A stretch of DNA of 64,000 nucleotides from NCBI RefSeq assembly GCF_002943565.1, contig NZ_PJCH01000011.1, positions 248,001 through 312,000 of the forward strand, given 5' to 3'. The position numbers were made by a program, and so were the translations under genes. This stretch comes from Hyphococcus luteus (GTDB lineage: Bacteria; Pseudomonadota; Alphaproteobacteria; Caulobacterales; Parvularculaceae). Numbering within the stretch: position 1 is the stretch's first letter; each line of letters opens with the position of its first letter. This document shows, piece after piece, positions 10,923-27,718 of the stretch. The notes under the pieces were generated by a model, which worked only from the letters and a program-made list of their open reading frames with translations, was not told the origin of the DNA and did not search any database.

Positions 10923-10999
<77 letters not shown>

Positions 11000-11303: not shown

Positions 11304-12860
11304 TCAAGAGACCCGCATCTCCAACAGCGCAGGGCCTTTAAGACTGAACATCTTCTCCAGTTCCACGCGCGCGCCCGCCTCCGTCTCCGCCGACGATGCT
11401 GCAACGCCAAACCCTTGTGCGAGCGCTGTGAAATTCACGCCGGGCAGATCGGCGCCGACGGCAGGCGTCTGCATCATTGCCGAAATATGCTTCAAAGCCT
11501 CGTAACTTTGATTGTTCAGGATAATAAAACCCACATCAAGATTACGCTGGGCCGCCGTCCAGAGCGCCTGCACCGTATAGAGCGAAGAGCCGTCGCCGAC
11601 GAGCGCAATCGTTTTCCGGGAACTGTCCGCCAGCGCTGCGCCGACCGCAGCCGAAAGCGCAAAACCGAGCCCGCCTGACGCTGTTGCAAAGAATGAAGCG
11701 GCATGATTCATTCGCAGCCGGGCCTGAATAACCGAACGGGCGCTTGGCGCTTCTTCAAAAATCCTGGCGCACTCCGGGCGAAGCTCTTCTATCAGGTCGA
11801 TGGAGGCCGGAAGCGTCAACGCTTGTTCATCGCCGCGCCGCAGGGCCGGCGCCTCCCGCAGCGCGCGTTTAAAAATCGGACGCGCCGGCGCCATAGAGTC
11901 AAACGTCAGCAAGGCGTCGCGGACATTGCCGACAATAGCGACGCCACGCGGCGTGTATGACGTCGTATTTTGGTCTTCCGAAAACTGAATGATAGTCCCA
12001 CCCAGCGGCGACGCCGCCGGCGCATGAAAATGATATTGAAAGGCCGGCGCGCCAAAAACCAGGACGAGATCGTGCTTCGACAGGCGAGCCACGATCTCGT
12101 CCTCGCGGGCGGGAAGGAAGCCCGCGAATTGGTTATGGCTTTCAGGAAAACAAATCCGGCTGGCCATGGGACTGGCCCAGACAGGACAGGCCAGCTTCTC
12201 CGCCAGCGCGACCAAAGCCTCCAAGCCGCCGGCGCGATCGACTTCCGGCCCGCTGACGATCACGGGCGAGCGCGCCTTTGAGAGCAGATCAGCGGCATGC
12301 GCGACAGCCCCCTTCTCAGGCGCCGGCGCGCCGAATAGGGAGACCGGCTGGACAGGTTCGGCGCGCTGATCCCAATCGTCAACTGGCACGGAAATAAACA
12401 CAGGACCGCGGGGCGCGGACATGGCGATAGAATAAGCCCGCGCAAAAGCTCTCGGCACATCTTGCGCGCGGGCAGGCTCGCAAGCCCATTTCACATAAGG
12501 CTTCACATGAGCGGTAGGATCAGTCGCGCCGAGAAAAGGCTCATAAGGAAGAATGCTTCGGGCCTGCTGACCCGCAACGACAATCAACGGCGTGTTATTC
12601 TTGTAAGCCGTCACCAGCGAGCCCATCGCGTGACCAAGGCCAGCCGCAGAATGCAGGTTTACGATCGCAGGCTTGTCCGCGACTTGCGCATAACCGTCGG
12701 CCATGGAAAGCGCCGCCGATTCCTGAAGCCCCAGCACATAATCGAAATCGGCCGGCCAGTTCTTGAAATAGGGTAATTCAGTAGAGCCCGGATTGCCGAA
12801 CACCGTCGTCAGGCCGGTCTCGCGCATAAATGCGTAAACGCTTTCTCTGACCGTCATCAT
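11304..12860 (-). CDS. mdlC: ThDP-dependent decarboxylase, benzoylformate decarboxylase-like
   Basis: Predicted to decarboxylate a 2-keto acid (aryl-CO-COOH to aryl-CHO) with thiamine diphosphate. The 518 residues align well by eye with Pseudomonas putida benzoylformate decarboxylase: S26 in FGNPGSTELP, the ThDP-activating E47, H70 in NLHSAAG, KWACEP, the second active-site His in FQYHFHAP, and the Mg/ThDP motif GDGSSLYTVQALWTAAQ...NN. The segment NNQSYEALKHI has Ile (I459) where benzoylformate decarboxylase has F464, so the acyl pocket is probably altered. Last gene of the island's minus-strand operon, 94 bp after the second DUF3237 gene. Confidence 0.85.
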   Translation of the reverse strand: MMTVRESVYAFMRETGLTTVFGNPGSTELPYFKNWPADFDYVLGLQESAALSMADGYAQVADKPAIVNLHSAAGLGHAMGSLVTAYKNNTPLIVVAGQQARSILPYEPFLGATDPTAHVKPYVKWACEPARAQDVPRAFARAYSIAMSAPRGPVFISVPVDDWDQRAEPVQPVSLFGAPAPEKGAVAHAADLLSKARSPVIVSGPEVDRAGGLEALVALAEKLACPVWASPMASRICFPESHNQFAGFLPAREDEIVARLSKHDLVLVFGAPAFQYHFHAPAASPLGGTIIQFSEDQNTTSYTPRGVAIVGNVRDALLTFDSMAPARPIFKRALREAPALRRGDEQALTLPASIDLIEELRPECARIFEEAPSARSVIQARLRMNHAASFFATASGGLGFALSAAVGAALADSSRKTIALVGDGSSLYTVQALWTAAQRNLDVGFIILNNQSYEALKHISAMMQTPAVGADLPGVNFTALAQGFGVAASSAETEAGARVELEKMFSLKGPALLEMRVS

Positions 12861-12954
12861 GGGATGAAGAACCTTCCGAAATACATCGAATCGTTGCTGC
12901 AGCGTGATAGCCGCGCCGGCGATGCTATGGCGCTGCAGATCTCAAGGCAGGAGA

Positions 12955-13434
12955 TCAAACCACTTTGTAGTAGCGGAAAAGCGAGCGGTCGGGATCGGAC
13001 AGGCGCTCGCCGCCGCCCACAATGCAGGTTCGCATCAGCCAATCATGCGGACCTTCGGGAACGCGAAAATACGGCGTAAGACGGAAATAAGAAGGCTGCG
13101 GCTGTTGCTGCGGCCCTTGCTCCGACTTCGGCTTTTCAGACGGGACGAGATAGCCCTTATTCATGATGTAAATCGGCGTCCCGTCCTCCGCTTTCAAAAG
13201 ATAATGCGCGTTAAGCTCAATCACGCCGTCAGGGCGCACCGTCGCATAATCGGCGCCGGAGTTCGGCACAACCGCACCGTTCAACAACGGGCCGGTAATC
13301 GCGCCGCCGATGGGCGGCGTATAGCCTTGCGCCGCGCCGCCCGGCGACGGCGGAAAGATCACCCGGTCCGCACCGAAAAAAACAGTGATGTCGAACGCAT
13401 GCTCCAGGGTTACGTCGGCCGGCCCTCTGCTCAT
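12955..13434 (-). CDS. DUF3237 domain protein
   Basis: 159-residue cytoplasmic protein of the DUF3237 family, no characterised function known to me. Shared family features are GxIxGPxLNGxVxPxSGAD, the RPDGVIELNAHYLLKAEDG segment and a C-terminal Y-F-R-x-T-P-x-F stretch. It has a Q/P/K-rich loop near residue 105. The start overlaps the CocE-like gene stop by four bases (ATGA). It is a diverged paralogue of the DUF3237 protein at 15107-15601; the two bracket the hydrolase in the same operon, suggesting two related steps or a heteromer. Confidence 0.85.
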   Translation of the reverse strand: MSRGPADVTLEHAFDITVFFGADRVIFPPSPGGAAQGYTPPIGGAITGPLLNGAVVPNSGADYATVRPDGVIELNAHYLLKAEDGTPIYIMNKGYLVPSEKPKSEQGPQQQPQPSYFRLTPYFRVPEGPHDWLMRTCIVGGGERLSDPDRSLFRYYKVV

Positions 13435-15104
13435 GAAAGGCTCCTTTCCGGAATAACCGGAACGAGAAGATGGGAATCATACTCCCCGCCCCCGTGGATC
13501 ACATGTTCGCCTTTGTTTCTCAGATTCTCATGACGGGCAAAGGGAAGGTTCGGCAGGCTGTCCTTATAGATATCGCTGCCTTGAACGACGACGCGCAGCG
13601 TTTCGCCGGGCGTGAAAACCGTTGAAGACGGCCATATTTCAATTTCAACCGGCGTCGGTTCGCCGGGTACGAGCGGTTCCTCGCGGTCATGCTTGTGAAA
13701 CGGCTGCTCCGGCGTGGAACGATCTTCGTCAAGCGCCCGATGGCTCGCGCGCAGCCACCCCAACGCGGCGGGTCCATTGTCGTAAAAAGCGTAAAACATG
13801 AAACCGACATGATCTTTTGCGGCGTCGAGCTTTTGTACGGCGACGAAAATATCCATGTCTTCGGCGCCATCAGCCTCCACCCACAATTTCAGTTTCATAT
13901 GACCGGTAATTTCGATTTTTTTGTCGAAACGGATGTCAAAAACCGCACGGCCTGTTTCGGCATCATATCTGAATGACGACGCCGCGGACTGCTCAAGCTG
14001 CAAAGCCTGCCGCTCGGGATCGAGCCAGAGCTTTTGATAGGCGGCGCGCGCAAGCGGCCATTCGTTTTCCACGCGCTCTTCGAATTCATGCGCGCTTTTG
14101 CGAATTTCGAGACGCACCTTGGGCCATGCCGGCACCAGCGTGTTTTCCGCCTTCAGGAAGTGATCGAAGAAGGCTTGACGCTTCTGCCGGTTTTCCGGCG
14201 CGTAATAATGGGCCCATTTTTTGCGCCCATGAACTTCCAACCATTTTTGAGCGGAGCCAATGCGCTTAAAAGCTTCAAGCGTGCCCCGCGAATGAAGCCC
14301 ATGGTCCGACCAGCTCGCTACAACGAATGCGGGCGCGGTGATGTTTTCAAGCTCGATATCCTTGGAACGCCAGAACTCGTCTATCAACGGATGCGCCTGA
14401 ACATTCGTCCAGGTGTCTTCCGTACGCCCTGTCGAAAAGCGGATATTATCCGAAGCACGCGGAATAAATCCGGTTTCGGGGATTCCGCCATGATAAGCGA
14501 ACTCGCGGTACCAGTCCGAAAAGGCTTCCCAAGGATTAATTGCGGCCAGCGGCTGCGGCTGCAAGGCGGCGACATAATATTGAATCGCCGCAAGATAGGA
14601 CACGCCGGTCATCCCGACCTTGCCGTTCGACCAGGGCTGGCTGGCCAGCCATTCGATGACCTCAGCGCAGTCCCGGCTTTCCCGATCGCCATTATGATGG
14701 AAGACGCCTTCGCTCAGCCAGGCGCCGCGCGGATCGACGACGGCGACGGCGTAACCGCGCGCACACCAGAAGACGGGATCCGGAGCCTCGAATGGCGTCA
14801 GCGGAGAAAGCCAGTCAGGCTGAACGCCGGAAGCGGGCCAGAAAACCTGATTTGATCGCCCATGCTTGCCGTACGGCCCCCAGGCGAGAAGCACAGGCAA
14901 GTCACTCACAAATCTGTTTGGCCGATGAATATCCGCATAGATATGAACGCCGTCGCTCAGCCGGATGACCGCGTTTCTTTCAGTCAGCAGCCCGTGCTCT
15001 TCAAAGCAAAGGTAATCCGCAGGCGGCAATGGAGGCTTGTTCGGCGCCGTTGCGGGATCGACGCCGGGGCGTGTAGCCCATTCAGGAGACGCTTCTTTCG
15101 CCAT
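13431..15104 (-). CDS. CocE/NonD-family (S15-like) alpha/beta hydrolase
   Basis: Predicted cytoplasmic esterase or acyl hydrolase, 557 residues from the ATG at 15104. Nucleophile S169 lies in GVSYLAA, the acid is probably D267 in SWSDHG, and the catalytic His is H299 or H292 in EVHGRKKWAHYY. The C-terminal half is the jelly-roll domain typical of cocaine esterase and X-Pro peptidases. The fourth residue after the nucleophile is Ala rather than the usual Gly. It starts 2 bp after the first DUF3237 gene and overlaps the second. Probably opens an ester in the imported substrate; the actual ester is unknown. Confidence 0.85.
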   Translation of the reverse strand: MAKEASPEWATRPGVDPATAPNKPPLPPADYLCFEEHGLLTERNAVIRLSDGVHIYADIHRPNRFVSDLPVLLAWGPYGKHGRSNQVFWPASGVQPDWLSPLTPFEAPDPVFWCARGYAVAVVDPRGAWLSEGVFHHNGDRESRDCAEVIEWLASQPWSNGKVGMTGVSYLAAIQYYVAALQPQPLAAINPWEAFSDWYREFAYHGGIPETGFIPRASDNIRFSTGRTEDTWTNVQAHPLIDEFWRSKDIELENITAPAFVVASWSDHGLHSRGTLEAFKRIGSAQKWLEVHGRKKWAHYYAPENRQKRQAFFDHFLKAENTLVPAWPKVRLEIRKSAHEFEERVENEWPLARAAYQKLWLDPERQALQLEQSAASSFRYDAETGRAVFDIRFDKKIEITGHMKLKLWVEADGAEDMDIFVAVQKLDAAKDHVGFMFYAFYDNGPAALGWLRASHRALDEDRSTPEQPFHKHDREEPLVPGEPTPVEIEIWPSSTVFTPGETLRVVVQGSDIYKDSLPNLPFARHENLRNKGEHVIHGGGEYDSHLLVPVIPERSLS

Positions 15105-15106
15105 GT

Positions 15107-15601
15107 CTACAGCAGTACATAATAATGGATGCGGTTGGCGTTGGGAACCTTCTCCGCAACGCCGACGAAAACATGCTTGCCGAGCCATTCGTGGGGCCCC
15201 GCCGGCGGTTCGAACCGGGGCGTCACACGCATGTAATAGTCAGAAGGATCGACATCTTCATTGCGCGACATGCGCTCAGCGATCTCTTCCGAACACGCCC
15301 AGCGATAGCCGCGGTTTTGCATGTAGATGACAGCGCCGTCATCGGCTTCGAGCATGTAACGCGCATCGAAGTCGATGACGCCGTTGGGACGCTGCAACGG
15401 GAAATCGCCGCCCGACATCGGAATCACTTTCCCGTTGAGTTTCGGTCCGCTGATCTCGCCACGCGCCGCATAGATCGCCGCCCTTGTGGCGCCCATCGAT
15501 GTCGGCGTGACCCATTGCAGCCCCGCAAGATCGATCGAGATCGTAAAGGCGTACTCGAACTTGGGAAAGAATTGATCTAACGGGACGCTGGGATCGCTCA
15601 T
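15107..15601 (-). CDS. DUF3237 domain protein (larger paralogue)
   Basis: 164 residues, DUF3237 family, function unknown. It carries the conserved GEISGPKLNGKVIPMSGGDF, RPNGVIDFDARYMLEADDG, RVTPRFEPPAGPHEWL and a C-terminal HYYVLL. Clear paralogue of the protein at 12955-13434. It sits 50 bp downstream of the TonB-dependent receptor and 2 bp ahead of the CocE-like hydrolase, so it belongs to the same operon. Confidence 0.87.
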   Translation of the reverse strand: MSDPSVPLDQFFPKFEYAFTISIDLAGLQWVTPTSMGATRAAIYAARGEISGPKLNGKVIPMSGGDFPLQRPNGVIDFDARYMLEADDGAVIYMQNRGYRWACSEEIAERMSRNEDVDPSDYYMRVTPRFEPPAGPHEWLGKHVFVGVAEKVPNANRIHYYVLL

Positions 15602-15651
15602 GACTTCCCTTTCTTTTCGTCTCGGACTGGCCTCAAGATTTTAAAGCGGCG

Positions 15652-18516
15652 TTAAAAGGAAACCCTGGCGCCGACTTTAAACACGCGCCCAAGAACGTCG
15701 TAAAGGGCGGGGTTCGTCACGCCGAAGCTGGACGGGAGCTTGTTCGGCGGATCCTTATCCAGCACGTTGTCGATCGCGCCGTAAAGCCTGATCGTCGAGT
15801 CGCCGCCGACCGATAAGTCGTAATAGGCGTTCAAATCGAAATAAGCGTAGGCGGGCACCGAGTTGTCGCTGATGCTGTTGGTGAGCGTCGGATCGTAGCC
15901 CGTTTGGCTCGGCCCTATCTTCGTTACATCGTAGAGACCGGAGGCAATGAAGCGTACTCTGGCGCCTGCGCCGAAAACGTCGTTCGACCAGCGAAGATTT
16001 GTGCTCGCCTGGAATTCCGGCAGGCCCGATTGCTGCGAAACCGGATAGCCGACCTGGCCGGCGTAATCGACCGCGCCGTTAGAATCGACGGTGATGAGAT
16101 CGATTAGATAGGTGCCGTAGGCATTGAGCGAGATTTCGCCGTTAAACGCAGGCGCCGTATACCCGAGCTCGAAATCAATGCCGCGCGTTTTGATGCTGTT
16201 GAGGTTAAGCCCCACCGACCGCACCGATTCGAGCGCGCCTCCTGATGTGCGCGTGATCAGATCGCAGAAATCGTTGGCGCCGCCGTAGCAGCGGTCGACG
16301 ATCACCTGCGCGCCGACGCTGGCGATCGCGCCGTCGATGTCGATGTCGAAGTAATCAGCCGAGAAGCGTACGGCGCCGAAGCTGAACACCGCGCCCGCCG
16401 TGAAGGTCTTCGCTATCTCCGGATCGAGGTCGGGGTTGCCGCCGCTGAATATCTGGGTCAGCGAGGAAACGCCGCCATTCTGCGGATCGGTCAGGAAGTT
16501 GAAGCTCGCTCCCGTCGGATTGTAGAGCTCGAAGAAATTCGGCGCCCGGATGTCTTTCGAGCGCGTGACGCGAAGGGTCAGGAAGTCGAGGGGCTCCCAT
16601 ACGCCGCCCACTTTCCAGCTCGTCACCGTCCCGCTTGTCGAATAATCGGTCAGGCGCACGGCGCCGTTGAGATCAAGCTGGCCGATCGCGCTGTCAGACG
16701 CCGCAAGCGGAACGCCGGCCTCGAAAAAGCCTTCCTTGACCTTGACGGCCGGGCCGGAAATCGGACCGGCGTTGTTGGTGTAAAAACGCAGATCCGTAGA
16801 AATCGGATCAGCCTCGCCGGTGACGTCCTCGACGCGGTATTCGACACCGGTCGCGACCGAGACGGGTCCGGCCCAGAGGTCGAACAAATCGCCGCTGACC
16901 GTCAGTGCGGCGACATGCTGCGACAGCTTGTTGCGCTGATCGGCCGTGCCGAAAGAATAGCCGGTATTGGCCGGATCGAAGTTGTATTCGCCGAGAATGT
17001 TCAGCGGCAAACACCCGTCGACGAGGGGATTTGTCGGATCGGTCAGCGTGGACCGGCAGACTATGTTGCCGTTGGGCGTTCCGCTCATAAACTCGCCCTC
17101 GTCCACCGCATCGACAGCTCGCGCGAAGTTGGATGTGATCAGCGTGTTGTAGCCGATCTGATGGTATTTCGTTCTGCCGAACTGATAGTAGCCGTCCAGC
17201 GACCAGCTTCCGCCGAGCGCGGCCTCAAACCCGGCCGTCGTCCTGAACGTGTTCCTGTCCACTGTGCCGAAGGAAGGACCGAAATCGTTGGTGATGCGCC
17301 CCAGGCTGAACGACGTCACGCCGGCGTCGTCCATGGCGTCCGCGAGTCCGTCTGAAAGATAGGGGTTGTCGCGGTAAATCGTCGGCGCCGTGCCGAAGAA
17401 CAGACGTCCCTGCGCTGAGGTCGATGTGGCGCTAACGTCCGCGTAGGACCCCTCCGCAAAAACCTTGATCGCGTCCGTCGCCTGATACTCGGCGCGGCCC
17501 ATGAGCGAATAACGCTCGACCGGGGCATAGAGCGGGAAAAACTGATAGAAAGCATGCTGCGGATCGGCGCTGCCGCCGGACTGGAAAATCGGCGCCCCGT
17601 AATACTCGCCGTAATCGTGCTGGAAGATGGAGCCGTCCGACGCAATCTCGGTTCCGGCCAGCGGGCCACCGGCGATGAGGCCGCCCCAGCTCGCCACCGA
17701 GGGACGCACATCAGGCAGAATCAATTGCCGGGCGAGACCGTTAAGCTGCGGCACGGGGTTCGACACCGGACCGTATTCTTCGCGGCACCAGTCGCGCTCA
17801 TAGCAATCGCCGACGCCCTTATTGTCAACATATTCGCCGCCAATCAGAATATGGCCCTTGCCGTCCGCAAAGTCTGCACCATACGCCGCCGAGAGGAGAA
17901 GTTCCTTCGCGTCGTTGTTATCGCTCATCCCATATTGGACTTTTCCGTCGAAACCGTTGAGGTCGCTGCGCAGGATGACGTTTACGACGCCGGCGACCGC
18001 ATCGGAGCCGTAAGCGGCAGAGGCGCCGCCGGTCACAACCTCGACCCGACTCACAAGCGATGACGGAATGGTGTTGAAATCGACGCCGCCGGCCGTTTTG
18101 CCGAGGCTGCCTCGCGCCGTGCTCGCCACCACGCGCCGCCCGTCGATCAGGACCAGCGTGCGCGAACCGCCGAGACCGCGAAGGTCAAGGGTTTGCGCGC
18201 CGACTTCGCCAAGGAAGACACCGGTCGCCGCTGGCGTTCCCTGCGCCCGGAAAGCCGGCAGATCGTTCAGCACATCCGCGACATTGGTCTCAGCCGCTTT
18301 CTGAATCGAATCGCCGTCGATCACCGTGGTCGGCGTTGGCGCGGAAAAACCGCTGCGCGAAAGGCGCGTTCCTGTGACGACGATCGTATCGTCGTCTGCC
18401 GTGGACGCCTCTTCGCTTTGCGCATAGGCGGTGGAAAAAAACAAAGACGCCGCGACCACGGCCGGGCTTGCAGTCATGGCCAAGATATTGGCGCAGCTAT
18501 ATTTTCTAGGCTTCAT
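15652..18516 (-). CDS. TonB-dependent outer-membrane receptor
   Basis: 954-residue outer-membrane active transporter. A signal peptide (about 1-32, ending AYAQ) precedes a TonB-box-like TIVVTGTRLSRS, a plug domain (VDFNTIPSSLVSRVEVVTGGASAAYGSDAVAGVVN) and a long beta-barrel ending in an aromatic residue (VGARVSF). The type resembles the large receptors that alphaproteobacteria use for plant and aromatic compounds rather than siderophores. First gene of the minus-strand arm of the island. Its promoter carries a perfect 16-bp palindrome that I assign to the adjacent MarR regulator. Confidence 0.93.
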   Translation of the reverse strand: MKPRKYSCANILAMTASPAVVAASLFFSTAYAQSEEASTADDDTIVVTGTRLSRSGFSAPTPTTVIDGDSIQKAAETNVADVLNDLPAFRAQGTPAATGVFLGEVGAQTLDLRGLGGSRTLVLIDGRRVVASTARGSLGKTAGGVDFNTIPSSLVSRVEVVTGGASAAYGSDAVAGVVNVILRSDLNGFDGKVQYGMSDNNDAKELLLSAAYGADFADGKGHILIGGEYVDNKGVGDCYERDWCREEYGPVSNPVPQLNGLARQLILPDVRPSVASWGGLIAGGPLAGTEIASDGSIFQHDYGEYYGAPIFQSGGSADPQHAFYQFFPLYAPVERYSLMGRAEYQATDAIKVFAEGSYADVSATSTSAQGRLFFGTAPTIYRDNPYLSDGLADAMDDAGVTSFSLGRITNDFGPSFGTVDRNTFRTTAGFEAALGGSWSLDGYYQFGRTKYHQIGYNTLITSNFARAVDAVDEGEFMSGTPNGNIVCRSTLTDPTNPLVDGCLPLNILGEYNFDPANTGYSFGTADQRNKLSQHVAALTVSGDLFDLWAGPVSVATGVEYRVEDVTGEADPISTDLRFYTNNAGPISGPAVKVKEGFFEAGVPLAASDSAIGQLDLNGAVRLTDYSTSGTVTSWKVGGVWEPLDFLTLRVTRSKDIRAPNFFELYNPTGASFNFLTDPQNGGVSSLTQIFSGGNPDLDPEIAKTFTAGAVFSFGAVRFSADYFDIDIDGAIASVGAQVIVDRCYGGANDFCDLITRTSGGALESVRSVGLNLNSIKTRGIDFELGYTAPAFNGEISLNAYGTYLIDLITVDSNGAVDYAGQVGYPVSQQSGLPEFQASTNLRWSNDVFGAGARVRFIASGLYDVTKIGPSQTGYDPTLTNSISDNSVPAYAYFDLNAYYDLSVGGDSTIRLYGAIDNVLDKDPPNKLPSSFGVTNPALYDVLGRVFKVGARVSF

Positions 18517-18566
18517 AAGATCCTCCCTGAGCGCAAACTGTTGTTTTATTTTTTAATTTTGCATGA

Positions 18567-18582
18567 TGTTGATATATCAACA
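18567..18582. promoter_or_regulatory. Putative MarR operator, TonB receptor/marR intergenic
   Basis: TGTTGATATATCAACA is a perfect 16-bp palindrome in the A+T-rich region between the divergent receptor and marR genes, 51 bp before the receptor start. Versions of TGTTGA-N4-TCAACA recur at 19319, 24570 and 26625. Confidence 0.75.
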
Positions 18583-18695
18583 ACCTGAGGCTGACAAGAG
18601 GGGACGACACTTTTCTATGGTTTTTTGAAGGAAACCGATGTTGATTGAGCCCTTGGCGACACACCAACGCATCTCAGAGAAAAAAATTAACGACC

Positions 18696-19211: not shown

Positions 19212-19318
19212 CGCTGCTCCACCATGGAAAACTGCACCGCACCATGGTCGCGGCGCTTCTATGGCGCCGCCGCAAAAGGCGCCTTGGTTATGAGCGCGCG
19301 TTGACAACGCTGTCGTTG

Positions 19319-19334
19319 TATTGAACAATCAACA
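19319..19334. promoter_or_regulatory. Putative MarR operator before the cleavage oxygenase
   Basis: TATTGAACAATCAACA matches TGTTGA-N4-TCAACA with one mismatch. A TTGACA at 19301-19306 could be the -35 box, and the palindrome would then cover the -10 region, fitting repression. Confidence 0.6.
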
Positions 19335-19411
19335 TTGTGGCGCTTGGGACCATCCCTTGCGCCGCGTTGCTGTTCTGCAAACAGCCTAACCTCCCGCGCC
19401 AAAGCATCGCC

Positions 19412-20860
19412 ATGAGCATCGTGTTCTCCAAAGAAAATCCGCTTTTTCAGGGCTGGGGCCGCCCGCTCCGGCTTGAAAGCAATATCGCCGGACTTGAACT
19501 CGTGTCGGGCGAGGTGCCGGACGGCATAAACGGATGCTGGTTTCGCGCCGGCCCGGACTGGCAGTATCCGAGCGGTCGAGACGATGACATTTTCATCGAC
19601 GGCGAAGGCATGATCCACCGTTTCAATTTTGAGAACGGCGCCGTTTCTTACCGTAGCCGCTGGGTGCGCACTGCCCGTTTTGAAGCCCAGGAAAAGGCGG
19701 GAAAAGCGCTTTTTGGACGCTATAGAAATCGTTACACGAACGATGCCTCGGTCGCTAATATCAGCATGGGCACCGGCAACACCAACGCGATCTTCCATGC
19801 CGGAAAGCTCCTTGCCCTGAAAGAAGACGACCTTCCCTATGAAATCGATCCCGAGACGCTGGAGACGATTGGAAAATACGGCCATCGCGGCGCCGTAAAA
19901 TCCGTGTGCATGAGCGCGCATCCGAAAGTCGATACAGTCGAAGACAAACTGCTGACCTACGCCTATCAGGCGAAAGGCGATGCGACGAAAGACATCGTCT
20001 ATTACGAGTTCGACAGCGACGGAACGCTCGGCAGCGAGATCTGGTTCGAGATGCCCTTCCCCGGCATGGTCCATGATTTCGCGATTACGCCAAGTTACGC
20101 AATATTTCCGATTTTTCCGCTGATCGCCGATCTTGAGCGTATCAAAAGCGGCGGCGACTATTACGCTTATTATCCCGACGAACAGATGCATGTCGCGATC
20201 GCGCCGCGCAATGGCGCCGCTAAAGACGTGAAATGGTTTAAAGGTCCAGCCTGGACTGCGGGACACATGCTGAACGCGTTCGAGGAAGACGGCCGCGTCT
20301 GCCTCGATCTTTGCCTTTATGACGGCAGTTGTTTCACCTTTCTCAAGACAGACAAAGGCGAGCCAACAACGTTCTGCCCACCCATTCTGTCGCGCCTCAG
20401 CTTTGACATGAAGCAACAAGACGACACGTTCGACCGCCGGCCCATCATGCCGGTTCCCTGCGAAATGCCGCGCACCGACGACCGCTATCAGGGCTATCCC
20501 TTACAACATGGGTTTATGATTGTTTACCGCGCCCAGGACGGAACAAGCGCGCTCGGCAAAGTCGACATGTCCACAGGCGAGATGAAGACCTGGTCGCCCG
20601 GCCCCCGCTCGTCGATCCATGAACCGCAATTCGTTCCCCGCGCGCCCGACGCGCCGGAGGGAGACGGCTGGCTGCTGGTCATTGTCAACCGGCTCGATGA
20701 CAACCACAGCGACCTTGCGATTGTCGACGCGACGGACATCGAGGCCGGCCCGGTCGCCTTGTTGCGGCTGCCGGTGCGCGTGCGATCCACCTTTCACGGC
20801 ACATGGGTTCCAGCCGATACTTTGGAAACCGGCCATCACGCGATGAAGAGGACCGCATGA
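19412..20860 (+). CDS. Carotenoid cleavage oxygenase family, lignostilbene dioxygenase type
   Basis: Fe(II) dioxygenase predicted to split an activated C=C bond into two aldehydes. 482 residues from the ATG at 19412. The four iron ligands are visible: H170 (SAHPKVD), H221 (MVHDFAIT), H285 (TAGHMLNAF) and H462 (STFHGTW). Y104 and K137-E138 fall three residues after Y101 and K134-E135 of bacterial lignostilbene/resveratrol dioxygenases, where they bind the substrate 4-hydroxyl. This favours a phenolic stilbenoid over a carotenoid. The stop overlaps the next gene's ATG. GTG at 19337 is an alternative start. Confidence 0.92.
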   Translation: MSIVFSKENPLFQGWGRPLRLESNIAGLELVSGEVPDGINGCWFRAGPDWQYPSGRDDDIFIDGEGMIHRFNFENGAVSYRSRWVRTARFEAQEKAGKALFGRYRNRYTNDASVANISMGTGNTNAIFHAGKLLALKEDDLPYEIDPETLETIGKYGHRGAVKSVCMSAHPKVDTVEDKLLTYAYQAKGDATKDIVYYEFDSDGTLGSEIWFEMPFPGMVHDFAITPSYAIFPIFPLIADLERIKSGGDYYAYYPDEQMHVAIAPRNGAAKDVKWFKGPAWTAGHMLNAFEEDGRVCLDLCLYDGSCFTFLKTDKGEPTTFCPPILSRLSFDMKQQDDTFDRRPIMPVPCEMPRTDDRYQGYPLQHGFMIVYRAQDGTSALGKVDMSTGEMKTWSPGPRSSIHEPQFVPRAPDAPEGDGWLLVIVNRLDDNHSDLAIVDATDIEAGPVALLRLPVRVRSTFHGTWVPADTLETGHHAMKRTA

Positions 20861-21378
20861 ACCCGACCTGCTGGCCTGACGGCGTTCCGGCGACAATGCC
20901 CGCGCAGGACCGCGCGGATATTATAGAGCTCTATGCGCGTTACGCCTGGGGGCTGGATCTGGCCGACGAAGAGATGCTGTTATCGGCATTTGCTGAAGAC
21001 GCGTGGTTCGACCATCTCTGGCAAGGCCGCGTACAGGGCCATGAGGCGATCCTCAAAAACATGCATGAACTGTGGGGCGAACGCTTTCACTGGTGGTTCG
21101 GACGTCAGCATGTCTTCAATCATCACATCATGACGCCGACAGAAGACGGCGCCGATGTGCGCTGTTTCTTTCAGATTCTTCAGTACAACCCCGAATACAA
21201 AAACAATTTTGTGTTTGGGGTCGGAACGAGAGAGGACAAGCTCGTTAAACGCGATGGGCGCTGGCTGTTTTACAGCCTCTATGTCAACGCCTGGACAAGC
21301 GCTGATGAAATCCCGTGGAAAGGCGTCCGCCCGGCCGCCAAGGGACCGAGCAAAACAAAGCCCGCCTCAAGCTCATAA
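20857..21378 (+). CDS. SnoaL/NTF2-like fold protein coupled to the oxygenase
   Basis: 173-residue small alpha+beta barrel protein. The region QDRADIIELYARYAWGLD followed by a Trp/His-rich core (HWWFGRQHVFNHHIM) is typical of SnoaL-4/NTF2-like isomerases, hydratases and ring-hydroxylase beta subunits. The ATG at 20857 overlaps the oxygenase stop (ATGA) and follows GAAGAGGA, so translation is coupled. It probably acts on a product or substrate of the oxygenase. The chemistry cannot be read from sequence. Confidence 0.82.
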   Translation: MNPTCWPDGVPATMPAQDRADIIELYARYAWGLDLADEEMLLSAFAEDAWFDHLWQGRVQGHEAILKNMHELWGERFHWWFGRQHVFNHHIMTPTEDGADVRCFFQILQYNPEYKNNFVFGVGTREDKLVKRDGRWLFYSLYVNAWTSADEIPWKGVRPAAKGPSKTKPASSS

Positions 21379-21416
21379 AGGTCTGCCGGTTGCGGCCGGC
21401 GGCATGTGGATCGGAT

Positions 21417-22277
21417 ATGACGACGATACTCGACAGAATTGCAGAGATCGGGTTTGAATTTTCGCCGGCGCTTGTTCAGAAATCCATCGCTCTGTTTGCG
21501 CCCACGGCGCCCTCCCCCAACGAAAAGCGCGTGCTGCGCGACTGCGCGTATGGTCCGGATGCGCGTCACCGTCTCGATATTTTCCTTCCCGAAGGCGGCA
21601 ACGAAAAGCGCGGAGTCGTCGTTTTCGTTCACGGCGGCGGTTTTATCGGCGGCGACAAAGGCGCGCCCGGCGCGCCGTTCTATAACAATATCGGCGCATG
21701 GGCGGCGGCGAACGGCATGATCGGGGTCACCATGACCTACCGGCTTGCGCCCGACCATCCATGGCCCGCCGGCGCGGAAGATGTCGCGGCAGCGATCGAC
21801 TGGCTGCACGCTCATGTCGCAGAACACGGCGGCGACCCGGACATGGTGTATCTTATGGGCCAATCGGCCGGGGCTGCTCATGTCGCCGCCTACGTCGCCC
21901 ATGACGCTTGGCGCGAACACGCCGAAAGGCGCCTCGCCGGCGCAATCATGCTGTCTGGCCTATATGATATTGCCCGGGCCGAAAGAAATGCGTTCCAAGC
22001 CGCTTATTACGGCGAAGACGATGGAGATTACGCTTCCCGCTCCTCCCTAGAAGGCTTCGCCAAGGTTTCAGTCCCCTGCTTTTTCACCATGGCCGAGCAT
22101 GACCCGGCGGATTTCCAACGGCAGGCCGAATGGGCGCGCGGCGTCTATGCGCGAAACCATGGCGGCAGTTGCGGCTTTGCTGTCTGCAAAGGGCACAATC
22201 ACATCACGCCCGTGCTACAGATCGGCGGCCCCCATGACGAGTTGGGGCCTGTCCTTTTGAACTTCATAAACCGTTAA
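21417..22277 (+). CDS. HSL-type alpha/beta hydrolase (esterase)
   Basis: 286-residue cytoplasmic esterase of the hormone-sensitive-lipase family. The oxyanion-hole motif HGGGF is at 72-76, nucleophile S150 in GQSAG, acid D229 in AEHDP and base H260 in KGHNH. The ATG at 21417 follows GGATCGGAT. It lies 38 bp after the SnoaL-like gene and ends 12 bp from a convergent gene, completing the plus-strand operon of the right arm. Candidate role: hydrolysis of an aryl or acyl ester in the island pathway. Confidence 0.9.
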   Translation: MTTILDRIAEIGFEFSPALVQKSIALFAPTAPSPNEKRVLRDCAYGPDARHRLDIFLPEGGNEKRGVVVFVHGGGFIGGDKGAPGAPFYNNIGAWAAANGMIGVTMTYRLAPDHPWPAGAEDVAAAIDWLHAHVAEHGGDPDMVYLMGQSAGAAHVAAYVAHDAWREHAERRLAGAIMLSGLYDIARAERNAFQAAYYGEDDGDYASRSSLEGFAKVSVPCFFTMAEHDPADFQRQAEWARGVYARNHGGSCGFAVCKGHNHITPVLQIGGPHDELGPVLLNFINR

Positions 22278-22289
22278 AAGGCATGACGG

Positions 22290-22703
22290 CTATTCAGGCC
22301 GGTCCTCAGCCCGCATCCAACGCCGCTCAAAAATCGCCGCGCGAATTTTCACATAAAGCCCGTCAGCGATATCATAAAACACGAAGGAATTGATGTAGAG
22401 CTGGTCGCCTTTCGCCATCGGCCCCGATGGAAAATCCGGCGCATCCTGCATCGCCGTAAATGTCGACTTCAATTCCGCCGCCAGCGTTTGGCCATCGGAC
22501 ACACAGGCGCAAATGGCTATCTTGCGCGATGCGCGCTCGTTCACCTTGGTGTAGCAATCGACGATTGCATCGCGGCCAATAAGCTCGCGGCCCGTTCCGT
22601 TCATCAGTTTGATGTCCGGCGAATAAAAGGTGATGAGCTTTTCGTAGTTCCTGTTGTTGAATGTGTCGATATAGTCAGCGAACCGTTCTTCAGGCGACAT
22701 CAT
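22290..22703 (-). CDS. SnoaL/NTF2-like protein, paralogue 2
   Basis: 137 residues. FADYIDTFNNRNYEKLITFYSPDIKL and APDFPSGPMAKGD mark the SnoaL/NTF2-like fold. It begins immediately after the stop of the preceding paralogue with no gap. The pair share the DxFNNxxY/F start and the PDF-x-GPM-x-x-GD loop, so they arose by tandem duplication and may form a heterodimer. Third gene in the MFS-led operon. ATG at 22700 is an alternative. Confidence 0.82.
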   Translation of the reverse strand: MMSPEERFADYIDTFNNRNYEKLITFYSPDIKLMNGTGRELIGRDAIVDCYTKVNERASRKIAICACVSDGQTLAAELKSTFTAMQDAPDFPSGPMAKGDQLYINSFVFYDIADGLYVKIRAAIFERRWMRAEDRPE

Positions 22704-23114
22704 TTAGCGCTCCCGAATGACGCAATATCGAGAAGAGCGAATGCGCGTGAATAGCCCTTCCGCATTAAGATCGTAAAAAATAAAATTGACAGTCTGGCGA
22801 CGATCGCCCGCCTTCATGGGGCCAGGCGCGAAATCAGGCCAGTCTTTTCGGAAATCGAGGGTCGTGACAATTTCTACAGCAACATGGGTTTTGGACCCCA
22901 CAAAGGTTTTCAGCTCGATATGCTCGTCAAGCCGTTCCATGACCATGCGATAAAACTTCACAATCTCTGCCGGCCCTTTAAGGTTCGCAGCCTGTCCGTA
23001 AAACTCCACATCAGGCGCATAAAAAGCGCTAAAGCCGTTAAAATCGTTATTATTGAACGCATCTAAATAACGCTCGAACCATTCGCGCCCACCAGCGGCG
23101 TCAATATTTTCCAT
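22704..23114 (-). CDS. SnoaL/NTF2-like protein, paralogue 1
   Basis: 136 residues from the ATG at 23114, which follows AAGGTGG; the longer frame to 23132 has no ribosome site. RYLDAFNNNDFNGFSAFYAPDVEFYG and WPDFAPGPMKAGD show the same NTF2-like family as its downstream neighbour. It lies 47 bp after the MFS gene. No dedicated catalytic residues can be named. Confidence 0.82.
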   Translation of the reverse strand: MENIDAAGGREWFERYLDAFNNNDFNGFSAFYAPDVEFYGQAANLKGPAEIVKFYRMVMERLDEHIELKTFVGSKTHVAVEIVTTLDFRKDWPDFAPGPMKAGDRRQTVNFIFYDLNAEGLFTRIRSSRYCVIRER

Positions 23115-23161
23115 GGTCCACCTTTCCATCATATTTTATTTGGAATTCAGAAAACCGCTCA

Positions 23162-24556
23162 CTATGCGGCGTCGGCTCCGGCTTTTGCCTCTTCGTAGAA
23201 ATCGTTGCGCAGCCTCACCGATGCAAAGAAGTACAGGAGCGCCGCGATGAAAAAGATGCATACAGCTACATTCAACGCCCTTTGAATGCCCAGCGCGCTT
23301 GCTTCAAGACACGCCGTAACCGCTGACGCGCTCGCCCCAGCGATTGCCACCCCGCCGGGACAAGCCGCATGGAAATCACCGTCAAATGCGCCGGTCGCCA
23401 TAAGGTCGCTCACCCAGCCTATGAAAGTTGGCCCAAGGCCCGAGCCTATCATGGTGTAAAGCATGGCGAACATCGCCGCGCCGGTCGCACGCATGCGCGG
23501 ATGAAGCAGATTCTGAATCATGCCAGAGGTTGGCGCATAAAAAATAAGCAGCATAGAGCCGGCAATTACGAGCAGTATGGTCGCCAAAGTAATATTATGA
23601 ACATTGAATGCTGCGAAATAGAAAAACGGCGCAATGCTAAGGCCAATCGCAGCCCCCCAAGCCGGCCACCGCTCGTCGCGTTTGGCAAGCCAATCGGTTC
23701 CAAATGATCCAAGCATAAGACCTATGGTAAGAAACGTCGCCGAGATAAACCCGTAATATAAAGCCGCTTCGCGCACCGGCATGTCGTAAGTTCTTGCCAG
23801 GAAAACCGCGAGAAACTGCGAAATCGATGTCATCCCAAACCCAGCAGTCGATCCGCCCGCTATGATGAGCATCAAGGATGGTTTGGAGCGCATCGTTTTC
23901 AAAAAAGCTGGGAAATCCGGAGGCGGAGAAACGCCCGGCGGAGCGCCATCGGCCAGACCGCGACTCGGTTCGCGGACGATCAAAAGAACAGACAGCGCAA
24001 CGATCAATCCGGCAGCGCCTAAAATGTAAAACGCATAACGCCAGTTCCAAGCCTCAGCAAAATAACCGCCCACAAGCGAACCGGTCAGGATGCCCGCTGG
24101 CGTGCCAAGCATTATTATGCCCATAATCGAGGAGCGCTTGTTCCTTTTAAACCTGTCGCCGACCATGGAGTTCACGGTCGGAATAAAACCCGCCTCGCCA
24201 ACGCCGACGCCAATCCGTCCCAGCGCTATATGTAAGAATGAATGCGCAAAGCCGCAAAAAACCGTCGCCGCCGACCAAACAGCCGCACAGGTCGCCATGA
24301 TTTTTACCCGCGATTTGCGTTCAGCCAAACGCGCAAGGGGGACGCCAAGCATCGAGTATAAAAACGCAAAGGCGAGCCCCTGCAACAGTCCGAGCTGCAA
24401 ATCGCTGAGGAGAAGTTCTGTCTTGATTGTCTGGGCAAGCACCGCAAAAACCGAACGGTCCGCAAAATCGAACAGACAAACAAGAAACATCAGGAAGACG
24501 AATAACCTCTGGCTGGCAGGAGCTAACAACCCCTCCTGTCCGGATTGATTTGACAC
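23162..24556 (-). CDS. MFS transporter
   Basis: 464-residue inner-membrane transporter with about 12 hydrophobic segments. The motif between helices 2 and 3 is degenerate (GVPLARLAERKSR), with GRIGVGVGEAGFIPT at helix 5. The SpnS-like MFS arrangement is common for aromatic-acid or lipid permeases. I start at GTG 24556 because AGGGAGG lies just upstream; the longer frame to 24586 would place the operator inside the coding region. It leads an operon with two SnoaL-like genes and is probably the inner-membrane partner of the TonB receptor. Confidence 0.88.
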   Translation of the reverse strand: MSNQSGQEGLLAPASQRLFVFLMFLVCLFDFADRSVFAVLAQTIKTELLLSDLQLGLLQGLAFAFLYSMLGVPLARLAERKSRVKIMATCAAVWSAATVFCGFAHSFLHIALGRIGVGVGEAGFIPTVNSMVGDRFKRNKRSSIMGIIMLGTPAGILTGSLVGGYFAEAWNWRYAFYILGAAGLIVALSVLLIVREPSRGLADGAPPGVSPPPDFPAFLKTMRSKPSLMLIIAGGSTAGFGMTSISQFLAVFLARTYDMPVREAALYYGFISATFLTIGLMLGSFGTDWLAKRDERWPAWGAAIGLSIAPFFYFAAFNVHNITLATILLVIAGSMLLIFYAPTSGMIQNLLHPRMRATGAAMFAMLYTMIGSGLGPTFIGWVSDLMATGAFDGDFHAACPGGVAIAGASASAVTACLEASALGIQRALNVAVCIFFIAALLYFFASVRLRNDFYEEAKAGADAA

Positions 24557-24569
24557 GTATGCCTCCCTA

Positions 24570-24585
24570 TGTTGATTATTCAACA
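24570..24585. promoter_or_regulatory. Putative MarR operator before the MFS operon
   Basis: TGTTGATTATTCAACA has perfect TGTTGA/TCAACA arms with a 4-base spacer. It lies 14 bases upstream of the GTG start, next to the ribosome site, where bound repressor would block the transcript. Confidence 0.75.
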
Positions 24586-24723
24586 CCTAGCGCGCCAGGA
24601 ACCAAATGTGAAGCAGCCAATCACGCAACCACAGAACATAACCGTAACGATAACTGCACAAGCGCGACGGGCCCGGGAAAGTCACACGTCATCGCCTTCG
24701 GCAGTTAGAAGCAAGCTCAGCCT

Positions 24724-25635
24724 ATGCTCGTTTATATTCTAGGCGCAGGCGCCATGGGCTGCGCGTTCGGCGCAAAGCTTTCAGCAGCCGGCTGGCGGAT
24801 ACACCTGATCGACGTAAACAAGGACCAAATCGACGCCATTAACCGGAACCGCCTGACGCTTCAGACCGATAGCGGCGAACAGACCTATGCTGTGGCAGCG
24901 AACACGGCGATTGACGCCGCCATGCCGGCGGATCTCATAATAGTCTTTACGAAATCTCTGCACACGACAGACGCCATGGCAAGCGTCGGCCATCTTATCA
25001 CCGACGATACACATGTGCTAACCCTACAAAATGGGCTTGGAAATGCGGAAAAAATTTCCACCTTTATCGCCGGAGACCGCATACTGGAGGGTGTGACAAC
25101 GGTTCCCGCCGAGATAGTCCGGCCGGGCGTCGTATCGTCTCATGGAGAAGGCGAAGTCCAGTTTTATCCTTATGGGGATGAAGTAAACGCCATGGCGGAA
25201 ACAATCGCCGCCACGCTCAACGCCGCCGGAATCGCCGCGACACTAGAACCCGCCGTAAAAAGCGCGATCTGGACAAAGGCAATTTTCAACGCCGCCATGA
25301 ACGCAACATGCGCCCTGCTCGACACTACGCCGGGGCCCCTTGGCGATCAGCAAGACGGCGTCGCCCTCATAAAAGCGCTTATCGATGAAGGCGTGCTGGC
25401 GGCGAAGGCCGCAGGGTGTCATCTTGATCCGCTGAAAATTCACGCCATGGCCAAGATGTCCATGACAGAGCATCGCGGCCATATCGCCTCCATGCTGCAA
25501 GACATCAGAGCCGGCCGGCGAACCGAAATCGACGACATCAACGGCGCGCTCGTAGAACAGGCGCGCGCGCATGGCGCAACCGCGCCCATGCATGAAACAC
25601 TATGGCGGCTCATGCGCGTACGCGAGCGGCTGTAA
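24724..25635 (+). CDS. Ketopantoate reductase-like (PanE/ApbA family) dehydrogenase
   Basis: 303-residue NAD(P)H-dependent oxidoreductase. The Rossmann motif GAGAMG is at residues 7-12, with LQNGLGN, the Lys-containing segment KSAIWTKAIFNAAMN (the expected catalytic Lys region) and SMLQDIRAGRRTEIDDINGAL of the C-terminal helical domain. True 2-dehydropantoate reductase is possible, but its place inside a catabolic island suggests a paralogue acting on a different 2-keto or 2-hydroxy acid, perhaps one that feeds the ThDP decarboxylase. Divergent from the MFS operon, convergent with the TauD-type gene. Confidence 0.85.
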   Translation: MLVYILGAGAMGCAFGAKLSAAGWRIHLIDVNKDQIDAINRNRLTLQTDSGEQTYAVAANTAIDAAMPADLIIVFTKSLHTTDAMASVGHLITDDTHVLTLQNGLGNAEKISTFIAGDRILEGVTTVPAEIVRPGVVSSHGEGEVQFYPYGDEVNAMAETIAATLNAAGIAATLEPAVKSAIWTKAIFNAAMNATCALLDTTPGPLGDQQDGVALIKALIDEGVLAAKAAGCHLDPLKIHAMAKMSMTEHRGHIASMLQDIRAGRRTEIDDINGALVEQARAHGATAPMHETLWRLMRVRERL

Positions 25636-25644
25636 AATTCTGGC

Positions 25645-26565
25645 TTATCTTGGCGCTTCTCCGGCGATCGTCGTCCGGTACATTTCGCGCCTGAACCCGT
25701 CATAATCATTGAGCGCTTGATGAATGCACAGGCGGTTGTCCCAAAGCGTCAAGGTTTTCGGCTCCCAGCGCAAACGGCACATAAAGGCCGGCTGCGTGAT
25801 GTGCCCCACCAGGTAACCGATGATCGGCGCCGCTTCCTCCTCGGCGAAGCCTTCAAAATTGATCGCGTATGACCCGTCCACATATAGGCACTTTTCGCCT
25901 GACACCGGGTGAGTCCTGACAAGCGGGTGATACGCGCCTTGAATCTTTTCTTTTAAGTCTTCGGGCAGCTCGGCGGCGGCGCGCAACTTTACCAGTTTGC
26001 CGATAGGATCGTCGCCCGGATTGCCTTTCGTCTGGGCGCCAACAAGCACGTCTCGCATGGACATGTGAACCTTCAGCGACTCGATCAGGTCTTTCATGGC
26101 GGGACTGAGCAAACGGTACGCCAGCGCGGAATTCGCCCATACCGTATCGCCGCCATAGGGAGGAATGTCTACGCCATACAGAATGCTGATTGCCGGAGGA
26201 CGCTTAAGGAATGGCGAATCGGTATGCCAACCCGCGCCGAAAACCCAGCCCGTCTTTACGTCTGCTTCCTTGATGATCGGCTGCACATTTCGATGCCCGT
26301 CAATACCGTCGGTATACGCGTCATCTGCAAATTCGCCAAAGCGAGCGCTGAACGATTCAAGCACGCCTGCGTCGATCTCCTGGTTGCGCAGATAAATCAT
26401 TTTGTGACGGAACAAGGCGTCTTCAACTTCTTTGAAGGCGTCATCGGAAAGATTTCCGACATCGACGCCCTTGATTTCCGCCCCCATCGCCGCGCAATGG
26501 GGCGCTGCTTCGATATGCCGGTATGTCTTGGCGGCGTTATACTCACGCCCGAAAGATGTGGTCAT
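25645..26565 (-). CDS. TauD/TfdA-family Fe(II)/2-oxoglutarate dioxygenase
   Basis: 306-residue non-haem iron oxygenase. The facial triad is visible as H114 and D116 in GWHTDSPF and H282 in CIHQALND, with the 2-oxoglutarate-binding Arg in FRREMYRTTI (R293/R297). Members hydroxylate next to a heteroatom and so cleave sulfonates, aryloxy ethers or O-methyl groups. In this context an ether- or methoxy-bearing aromatic is plausible. It is transcribed alone behind its own operator copy and ends 9 bp from the convergent reductase. Confidence 0.92.
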   Translation of the reverse strand: MTTSFGREYNAAKTYRHIEAAPHCAAMGAEIKGVDVGNLSDDAFKEVEDALFRHKMIYLRNQEIDAGVLESFSARFGEFADDAYTDGIDGHRNVQPIIKEADVKTGWVFGAGWHTDSPFLKRPPAISILYGVDIPPYGGDTVWANSALAYRLLSPAMKDLIESLKVHMSMRDVLVGAQTKGNPGDDPIGKLVKLRAAAELPEDLKEKIQGAYHPLVRTHPVSGEKCLYVDGSYAINFEGFAEEEAAPIIGYLVGHITQPAFMCRLRWEPKTLTLWDNRLCIHQALNDYDGFRREMYRTTIAGEAPR

Positions 26566-27640: not shown

Positions 27641-27718
27641 CCCTTCGGCGAAGGCCGAAAAACCAAAATCTGCGATCTTGCGGCGAACGCCGATTTGGCG
27701 GAAACCGTAAAAAGTTGG

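Follow-up and report, generated by a model that had tools for sequence, protein, structure and literature searches.

A putative horizontally acquired island of Hyphococcus luteus as a candidate system for the catabolism of phenylcoumaran-type hydroxycinnamate dimers

The catabolism of phenylcoumarans (DCA, beta-5 dimers) has been described in Sphingobium strain SYK-6, where it involves phcCD, phcFGH, lsd7/lsdD, ferD, and ligW. PhcF and PhcG are reported to decarboxylate a phenylcoumaran (8-5) diacid known as DCA-CC stereoselectively and to open its ring, which yields a stilbene (PMC12997858, PMC11323797), and PhcH contributes to some extent (PMC8191317). DCA-CC is described as a dihydrobenzofuran-3-carboxylate with a carboxyvinyl side chain (PMC8191317), and DC-A was prepared by reduction of an 8-5-coupled diferulate; from these compound names, we read DCA-CC as cyclic 8-5 diferulic acid. 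Lignostilbene dioxygenases (LSDs) of the LSD3 and LSD4 types are reported to cleave DCA-S. The PcfL route of Novosphingobium aromaticivorans for beta-5 dimers likewise leads from a phenylcoumaran to a stilbene and then through LSD, FerD, and LigW, and PcfL is an NTF2-type formaldehyde lyase related to LdpA (PMC11323797). The pinoresinol (pin) pathway of N. rhizosphaerae LY also combines a DUF3237 decarboxylase with an LSD: PinX, which contains a DUF3237 domain, shares 42% identity with PhcG and 38% with PhcF, and PinU is an LSD homologue (PMC12607616). Here, we compare these systems with 14 genes at 11304..26565 of a 64-kb stretch of the 4.92-Mb genome of Hyphococcus luteus (contig C3, positions 248001-312000; we refer to the whole stretch as the window). 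We consider it fairly probable that these genes form a horizontally acquired, MarR-controlled island for the catabolism of hydroxycinnamate dimers of the phenylcoumaran type (8-5-coupled); diferulate esters would be the most likely substrates.

In the pathway that we propose, the ester would be imported by a TonB-dependent receptor and an MFS carrier, and a CocE-type esterase (perhaps also an HSL-type esterase) would free the carboxyl groups to give 8-5 diferulic acid, which is the DCA-CC of the SYK-6 literature. PhcG- and PhcF-like DUF3237 enzymes, one for each enantiomer, would decarboxylate DCA-CC and open the furan ring. The resulting stilbene would be split into vanillin and 5-formylferulate by an LSD, either the LSD7-type enzyme of the island, an LsdD-type enzyme encoded about 86 kb away, or both. 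Enzymes of the FerD and LigW types, encoded about 82 kb away, would convert 5-formylferulate to ferulate, and protocatechuate 4,5-cleavage would complete the pathway. A thiamine diphosphate (ThDP)-dependent decarboxylase, a ketopantoate-reductase-like dehydrogenase (KPR), and a TauD-family dioxygenase would serve a side branch that runs via a 2-keto acid. From DCA-CC onward, the gene content looks like a variant of the SYK-6 pathway with an esterase entry.

A preliminary description of these 14 genes had proposed an undescribed system, under one MarR-type regulator, that imports, de-esterifies, and cleaves a stilbenoid-like compound. All of the genes that it named are present, and their Pfam and NCBIfam families agree with it. 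The search for conserved neighborhoods that it suggested also succeeded, as large parts of the gene set recur in other genomes. Import, ester hydrolysis, and cleavage by a lignostilbene-type oxygenase are supported, and the DUF3237 pair, for which no function had been suggested, corresponds to the stilbene-forming PhcF/PhcG type. But the core matches described SYK-6 phenylcoumaran genes, and homologues of the CocE, HSL, SnoaL4, SnoaLy, receptor, and LSD7-type genes lie at the same SYK-6 locus, so the system was less novel than supposed. As for the substrate, a stilbene probably does arise as an intermediate, but a phenylcoumaran (8-5) dimer acid or its ester is the better description of the entry compound.

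Both DUF3237 proteins of the island (DUF3237a and DUF3237b) match PF11578 (E = 1e-29 and 7e-35). We scanned named genomes using a DUF3237 alignment and obtained 324 stretches; 278 were confirmed, and the best 80 of these were kept. Our locus counts refer to these 80 relatives with flanks of up to 10 kb; some contigs are short, and close relatives were counted separately, so the loci are not independent. We call a locus PhcG-type, or an ortholog locus, if its DUF3237 protein is at least 55% identical to DUF3237b (57 loci); the remaining 23 are other DUF3237 loci. The 55% line was placed after we saw a gap (57% versus 49%), and the identity cut-offs for neighboring genes, which differ by gene, were chosen after we saw the neighborhood table. 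No DUF3237b relative was found in the viral contigs that we searched. (Labels beginning with L, G, and C are our own names for loci, genomes, and contigs.)

At the SYK-6 locus (L086), homologues of DUF3237b (68% identity) and DUF3237a (58%) are adjacent, and within 20 kb there are homologues of the island's LSD (54%), HSL esterase (46%), SnoaL4 (61%), SnoaLy (60%), CocE hydrolase (65%), and receptor (47%). We assigned PhcF (SLG_09360), PhcG (SLG_09370), LSD7 (SLG_09440), and PhcC/PhcD (SLG_09480/09500) in SYK-6 by position. The eight LSD genes of SYK-6 fit the eight published tags, and each of them has the published residue at position 283. Two GMC oxidase genes lie at 1.009 and 1.011 Mb; the intervening genes match the tags provided that each of two unresolved stretches in L086 contains one gene. 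Outside this locus, SYK-6 has another five or six DUF3237 matches (eight rows in all, including two near each other at 2.935 Mb). Among these, the protein at the PinX position is 42% identical to the PhcG candidate and 40% identical to the PhcF candidate, values close to those reported for the PinX protein of strain LY. A tree of 132 rows (with a long-branch warning for other rows) places DUF3237a with the PhcF candidate in a group of 38 rows (support 95/97) and DUF3237b with the PhcG candidate in a group of 60 rows (100/89); the PinX candidate lies elsewhere. Judging by identity, gene order, and the tree, DUF3237a corresponds to PhcF and DUF3237b to PhcG. We also note that two Pseudomonas loci (L126 and L127) have a PhcG-type DUF3237 protein (59-60%) and an LSD within 10 kb, and no CocE gene was seen there.

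The island differs from the SYK-6 pathway in that it lacks phcC and phcD and in that CocE sits between the two DUF3237 genes. A CocE homologue lies within 3.5 kb of DUF3237b in 40 of the 57 ortholog loci and in none of the 23 others. It is located between the b and a genes in 32 of the 57. In the rest, the two genes are adjacent on the same strand (9, including SYK-6), adjacent and divergent (3), separated by a GMC gene (1, L128), or no a gene was seen (12). The GMC protein in the L128 slot is 60% identical to the PhcD candidate, and GMC proteins from genome G222 and locus L085 are 66% and 70% identical to it; L085 has CocE and two GMC genes together. More broadly, GMC genes of at least 43% identity are near 4 of the 57 ortholog loci and 2 of the 23 others. 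No PhcC/PhcD-type GMC gene was found in the island. The genome has three GMC genes, at C7:621k (53% to PhcD), on C13 (50% to PhcC), and at C7:775k (39-45%), so its best two are at 50-53%, versus 60-70% for clear relatives. Since the slot that CocE fills in many genomes is filled by a PhcD-like gene in L128, we infer that CocE and PhcC/D are alternative routes to the ring carboxylate, with CocE exposing by hydrolysis the carboxyl group that PhcC/D make by oxidation. The substrate would then probably be an 8-5 diferulate ester.

The closest solved relative of the CocE protein is a CocE/NonD hydrolase (3ib3). All 44 aligned CocE sequences keep S197 and D295, and 38 of the 44 keep H327 (the window is included, and four genomes appear twice); by analogy with the family, S197 would be the nucleophile, D295 the acid, and H327 a candidate base. 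Of the 10 ortholog loci with an LSD7-type gene, 8 also have an HSL homologue of at least 40% identity.

The idea that one regulator governs the island was supported by a palindrome, TGTTGA-N4-TCAACA, which occurs as TGTTGATATATCAACA between the receptor and MarR genes; a 25-base version of this site precedes TauD. (We found the motif in the cluster and counted it afterwards, allowing any four bases at the center and no more than one mismatch.) The window has exactly four sites, at 18567, 19319, 24570, and 26625, versus 0.03 expected, and none of 100 shuffles reached four. They lie at the receptor/MarR, LSD, MFS(/KPR), and TauD promoters, which supports a single regulon. Only seven sites occur genome-wide, namely the four in the window, two on contig C13, and one on C8; the last overlaps the beginning of a predicted frame that does not resemble the island genes. 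The backwards pattern gives none. The 57 PhcG-type loci contain 80 sites, spread over 40 loci, while the 23 other loci contain none, and block shuffles give 0.33. Of the 80 sites, 61 are near the start of a gene in the reference set, and sites are near the starts of 30 of 58 DUF3237b genes, 29 of 36 MarR genes, 17 of 33 SnoaLx genes, and 9 of 29 receptor genes. Also, a MarR gene is within 3.5 kb of DUF3237b in 35 of the 57 ortholog loci versus 0 of the 23 others. MarR presumably binds the palindrome. A copy precedes the SnoaLx-PhcG-PhcF run in SYK-6 (L086:9510), and the parts of the published pathway accounts available to us name no regulator for that run.

The island genes are not arranged as a single operon. 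Beside a minus-strand run of receptor, DUF3237b, CocE, DUF3237a, and ThDP genes lie MarR and then LSD, SnoaL4, and HSL on the plus strand; then come MFS, SnoaLy, and SnoaLx (minus), KPR (plus), and TauD (minus). Table 1 gives the coordinates.

The cluster also appears to have been acquired horizontally by insertion at a tRNA-Met gene. Two tRNA-Met (CAT) genes bracket it and are 94% alike over 94 bases (10915-11008 and 27711-27804). The left neighbor, GCS2, was found in 22 of 28 genomes of the genus, including this one, and a tRNA-Met gene adjoins it in all 22 of those loci. In 7 of the 21 loci from other genomes of the genus, the site is empty (GCS2-tRNA-Ppx), with Ppx-GppA within about 90 bases of the tRNA; in another (L199), Ppx-GppA starts about 1 kb past the tRNA, and in the remaining 13 it was not seen within the short stretch examined. 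In our genome, the ThDP gene occupies the position of Ppx-GppA next to the tRNA. GC content is 53-56% at 22-28 kb versus 57-67% elsewhere in the window. A Pfam scan of the 14 genes and six neighboring frames gave no match to integrase families. Within the genus, genome G189 carries the cluster on an 11.7-kb contig with 79-95% identity per gene (its MFS is a fragment of 56 residues, at 71% identity). Two further carriers, G087 and G229, have cluster genes in the same order.

Table 1. Coordinates in the window of the island's genes, candidate operators, and flanking tRNA genes
Feature	Position	Strand	Basis or remark
tRNA-Met (CAT)	10923..10999	+	ARAGORN; left border of inserted segment
ThDP-dependent decarboxylase, benzoylformate-decarboxylase type	11304..12860	-	NCBIfam NF005485; closest PDB entries are benzoylformate decarboxylases
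DUF3237a, PhcF-type phenylcoumaran-acid decarboxylase (by homology)	12955..13434	-	PF11578; 58% to SYK-6 PhcF-position gene; clade
CocE/NonD-type hydrolase, start probably 15104; proposed ring-carboxyl ester hydrolysis	13431..15188	-	TIGR00976
DUF3237b, PhcG-type phenylcoumaran-acid decarboxylase (by homology)	15107..15601	-	PF11578; 68% to SYK-6 PhcG-position gene; clade
TonB-dependent outer-membrane receptor (TBDR)	15652..18516	-	Pfam Plug and barrel
Palindromic operator candidate TGTTGATATATCAACA between receptor and MarR genes	18567..18582		Motif search
MarR-family regulator	18645..19211	+	Pfam MarR_2
Operator candidate before oxygenase gene, 1 mismatch	19319..19334		Motif search
Lignostilbene-type dioxygenase, LSD7/LsdB type; start probably 19412	19337..20860	+	PF03055
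SnoaL4, NTF2-like protein; start probably 20857	20803..21378	+	PF13577
HSL-type esterase	21315..22277	+	Abhydrolase_3/BD-FAE
SnoaLx, NTF2-like protein	22290..22703	-	PF12680
SnoaLy, NTF2-like protein	22704..23132	-	PF12680; 60% to gene at SYK-6 locus
MFS transporter; start possibly downstream of 24586	23162..24586	-	PF07690
Operator candidate at 5' end of MFS frame, facing KPR	24570..24585		Motif search
Ketopantoate-reductase-like dehydrogenase (KPR)	24724..25635	+	TIGR00745 above cut-off
TauD-family 2-oxoglutarate dioxygenase	25645..26565	-	PF02668
Operator candidate before TauD, 1 mismatch; 25-base context common with 18567 site	26625..26640		Motif search
Broken copy of tRNA-Met gene 5' part	27609..27640	+	Sequence comparison
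Second tRNA-Met (CAT), right border	27719..27795	+	ARAGORN

The island's oxygenase belongs to the RPE65/lignostilbene-type family (PF03055, E = 1e-129) and scores under the NCBIfam equivalog cut-offs for lignostilbene dioxygenases (467 versus 800 bits for NF053778 and 442 versus 650 for NF053780). It is 54% identical to LSD7 of SYK-6 and 34-40% identical to the other seven SYK-6 LSDs. It keeps the four histidines, Tyr101, Asn120, and Lys134, and it has Ile at 59 and Gly at 283 as in LSD7. By these comparisons, we take it to correspond to LSD7. Genes of this type occur in 10 of the 57 ortholog loci. Other ortholog loci have LSD3-type neighbors (70-72%; L093, L098, L101, and L109), LSD4-type neighbors (58-62%; L082, L096, L115, L120, L124, L125, and L130), or other types (L126, L127, and L128). 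Genome G087 has a second LSD gene beside the cluster (L029:14838-16220) that appears to be split into two reading frames.

Candidates for the later steps lie elsewhere on the same contig. At C3:356-362 kb, about 82-86 kb from the island, are FerD- and LigW-type, MFS, DUF3237, LsdD-type LSD, and MarR genes. The genes at 356-359 kb are 78% and 71% identical to those at the FerD and LigW2 positions of SYK-6, the LSD at 361 kb is 71% identical to LSD4/LsdD, and the DUF3237 protein of this cluster is 76% identical to the product of the SYK-6 gene beside LSD4. One stretch of SYK-6 holds the same FerD, LigW2, MFS, DUF3237, and LSD4 genes. A LigB-like gene (64%) is at C3:315 kb, with one stop reported in the matched stretch. 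In other genomes, a FerD-like gene is beside the module in 11 of 57 loci and a LigW-like gene in 8 of 57; the LigW-type protein of G087 matches solved 5-carboxyvanillate decarboxylases (E = 2e-137). G222 has the portion of the cluster with LSD-SnoaL4-HSL, MFS, PhcD-like, and PhcF-like genes, and both G222 and G229 have protocatechuate 4,5-cleavage genes nearby. Two observations concern the wider genome. A paralogue of the ThDP protein (59%) is encoded about 12 kb from the FerD-type gene at C3:356-362 kb. Also, a protein from L069:11484-12230 is 62% identical to the one at the LdpA position of SYK-6, so a beta-1 dimer route may exist in the genome.

The ThDP, KPR, and TauD genes are additions relative to SYK-6, and the steps that we suggest for them and for the SnoaL-like proteins are tentative. 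The ThDP protein appears to be of the benzoylformate-decarboxylase type, as it scores 638 bits against an equivalog cut-off of 493 (NF005485). The closest solved structure to TauD, albeit a distant one, is (R)-phenoxypropionate dioxygenase (RdpA kind; E = 4e-53). That enzyme cleaves aryl ethers, leaving a 2-keto acid. A second cluster that bears the palindrome, on contig C13 (L244:7486-16772), has IclR, receptor, TauD, ThDP, SnoaL, and two MFS genes. Its two sites precede the receptor gene and an MFS gene whose product is 68% identical to the window's; its ThDP and TauD proteins are 24% and 35% identical to the window's. Relatives of the C13 TauD-ThDP pair (ThDP at least 72% identical) are side by side in 18 of 57 ortholog loci versus 0 of 23. 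This arrangement, on C13 and in those 18 loci, fits a 2-keto acid being handed from TauD to ThDP. Genes in Sphingomonas and Novosphingobium loci that match the window's ThDP and TauD at 23-36% mostly correspond to the C13 cluster instead.

Homologues of the window's own accessory genes are less frequent. ThDP of the window type (at least 40%) is found in 7 of 57 ortholog loci, TauD in 1 of 57, and KPR (at least 33%) in 7 of 57 versus 0 of 23. Five loci (L093, L098, L101, L109, and L113) have both ThDP and KPR near the PhcG-CocE-PhcF run, and the first four also have FerD and/or LigW. Receptor homologues (at least 35%) are in 18 of 57 ortholog loci and MFS homologues (at least 45%) in 22 of 57, versus 0 of 23 for both. 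SnoaL4 is 53-94% identical to 11 aligned relatives. Among PDB entries, SnoaLy has no strong relative and SnoaL4 has one weak relative, and the quality of its AlphaFold model (mean pLDDT 56) is too low for the model to be of use. We considered whether SnoaL4 might be a lyase of the LdpA/PcfL type and rejected close kinship with LdpA, as it is 25% identical to the protein at the LdpA position of SYK-6 and has only its Pfam family in common with it. In this respect the island differs from the PcfL route, although SnoaL4 was compared with the LdpA candidate and not with PcfL itself.

A more elaborate version of our proposal, which we offer tentatively and consider less likely than not to be right in all its parts, is that the island is a dedicated regulon for esterified ferulate dehydrodimers from plant cell walls. 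CocE would replace PhcC/D and hydrolyze 8-5 diferulate esters to supply PhcF/G, and LSD7 would act on a carboxylated or ester-derived stilbene to give an aryl-glyoxylate for the ThDP enzyme. TauD and ThDP, linked by the palindrome, would open a second type of dimer (e.g., 8-O-4), with an ether cleavage like that of RdpA producing a 2-keto acid. Our searches of the open-licence literature turned up no functional description of the esterase, ThDP, KPR, or TauD genes in a phenylcoumaran setting.

Several observations weigh against diferulate esters as the substrate of a single regulon. LSD7 is reported to prefer lignostilbene and to be poor on DCA-S (PMC8191317), which speaks against LSD7 as the main DCA-S enzyme; the island's LSD may have a different stilbene as its substrate. 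Just 22 of the 57 ortholog loci have any LSD (versus 4 of the 23 others), and 17 of the 57 have no CocE gene in the stretch examined, though some of those contigs are short. As CocE and PhcC/D occur together in SYK-6, the esterase could have a different ester as its substrate, and with GMC proteins that are 50-53% identical to PhcC/PhcD, our genome might use oxidation. The reach of the palindrome is also limited. Across the loci, sites are near the starts of 1 of 25 LSD genes and of none of the 23 TauD, 23 ThDP, 20 FerD-like, or 8 LigW genes; its extension to LSD and TauD is seen in the window (for LSD, also in G189) and hardly elsewhere. A search of the genome did not find the palindrome at its FerD/LigW/LsdD cluster.

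An alternative would be phenylcoumarans at the alcohol level, such as dehydrodiconiferyl alcohol and its gamma-acylated forms. CocE would then deacylate the gamma-hydroxyl, GMC oxidases encoded outside the island would make the acid, and PhcF/G and LSD would act as in SYK-6. The PhcF/G chemistry would be identical, two of the three GMC genes in the genome are at the 50-53% level, and SYK-6 itself has CocE near phcF. We nevertheless think this unlikely: the island lacks PhcC/PhcD, no relative at 60-70% such as those in G222, L085, and L128 was found in the genome, and the sharing of one slot by CocE and a PhcD-like gene fits substitution better than succession (tempered by L085, which has both CocE and two GMC genes). 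That free stilbenoids of the resveratrol or lignostilbene type are the substrate, with LSD acting first and the DUF3237 genes doing something else, seems quite improbable to us. It would suit the reported preference of LSD7 for lignostilbene and the retention of the phenol-binding Tyr101 and Lys134. But the most conserved parts of the module, namely the PhcF/PhcG homologues and CocE, would not be needed for free stilbenoids, and LSD7-type genes are in so few of the loci.

Perhaps the island instead brings together several catabolic genes that have nothing to do with each other apart from a common regulator. KPR, TauD, and ThDP recur less than the core (in 7, 1, and 7 of 57 loci), no reaction links them with certainty, and relatives show no palindrome before TauD or ThDP. 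Yet the palindrome in the window is at the promoters of LSD, MFS/KPR, TauD, and the receptor-PhcG-CocE-PhcF-ThDP run, and the palindrome-bearing C13 cluster again pairs TauD with ThDP, so we give this idea very little weight. Least of all do we favor the catabolism of lignans (beta-beta) by a pathway of the pin type, even though that pathway likewise has a DUF3237 protein (PinX) and an LSD homologue (PinU). The window's DUF3237 proteins are 36-39% identical to the protein at the PinX position of SYK-6 and fall in other clades, and the island's LSD is 40% identical to LSD5/LsdF, the type assigned to PinU. We rejected the pin pathway on this comparison of PinX and PinU; PinZ, PinY, PinV, and PinW were not searched for.

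Our preferred reading of the island as a phenylcoumaran-type system makes it a concrete candidate for the bacterial catabolism of diferulate esters. Diferulates cross-link the cell walls of grasses, and among the matches listed by our searches of the open-licence literature we found no description of a bacterial pathway for their esters. The proposal also offers a reason why a CocE hydrolase travels with PhcF and PhcG, as well as a lead to the role of LSD7, and the operator motif allows the regulon to be traced across genomes. Finally, the host is outside the Sphingomonadales, so phenylcoumaran-type systems, as recognized by homology, extend to Parvularcula- and Hyphomonadaceae-type bacteria.

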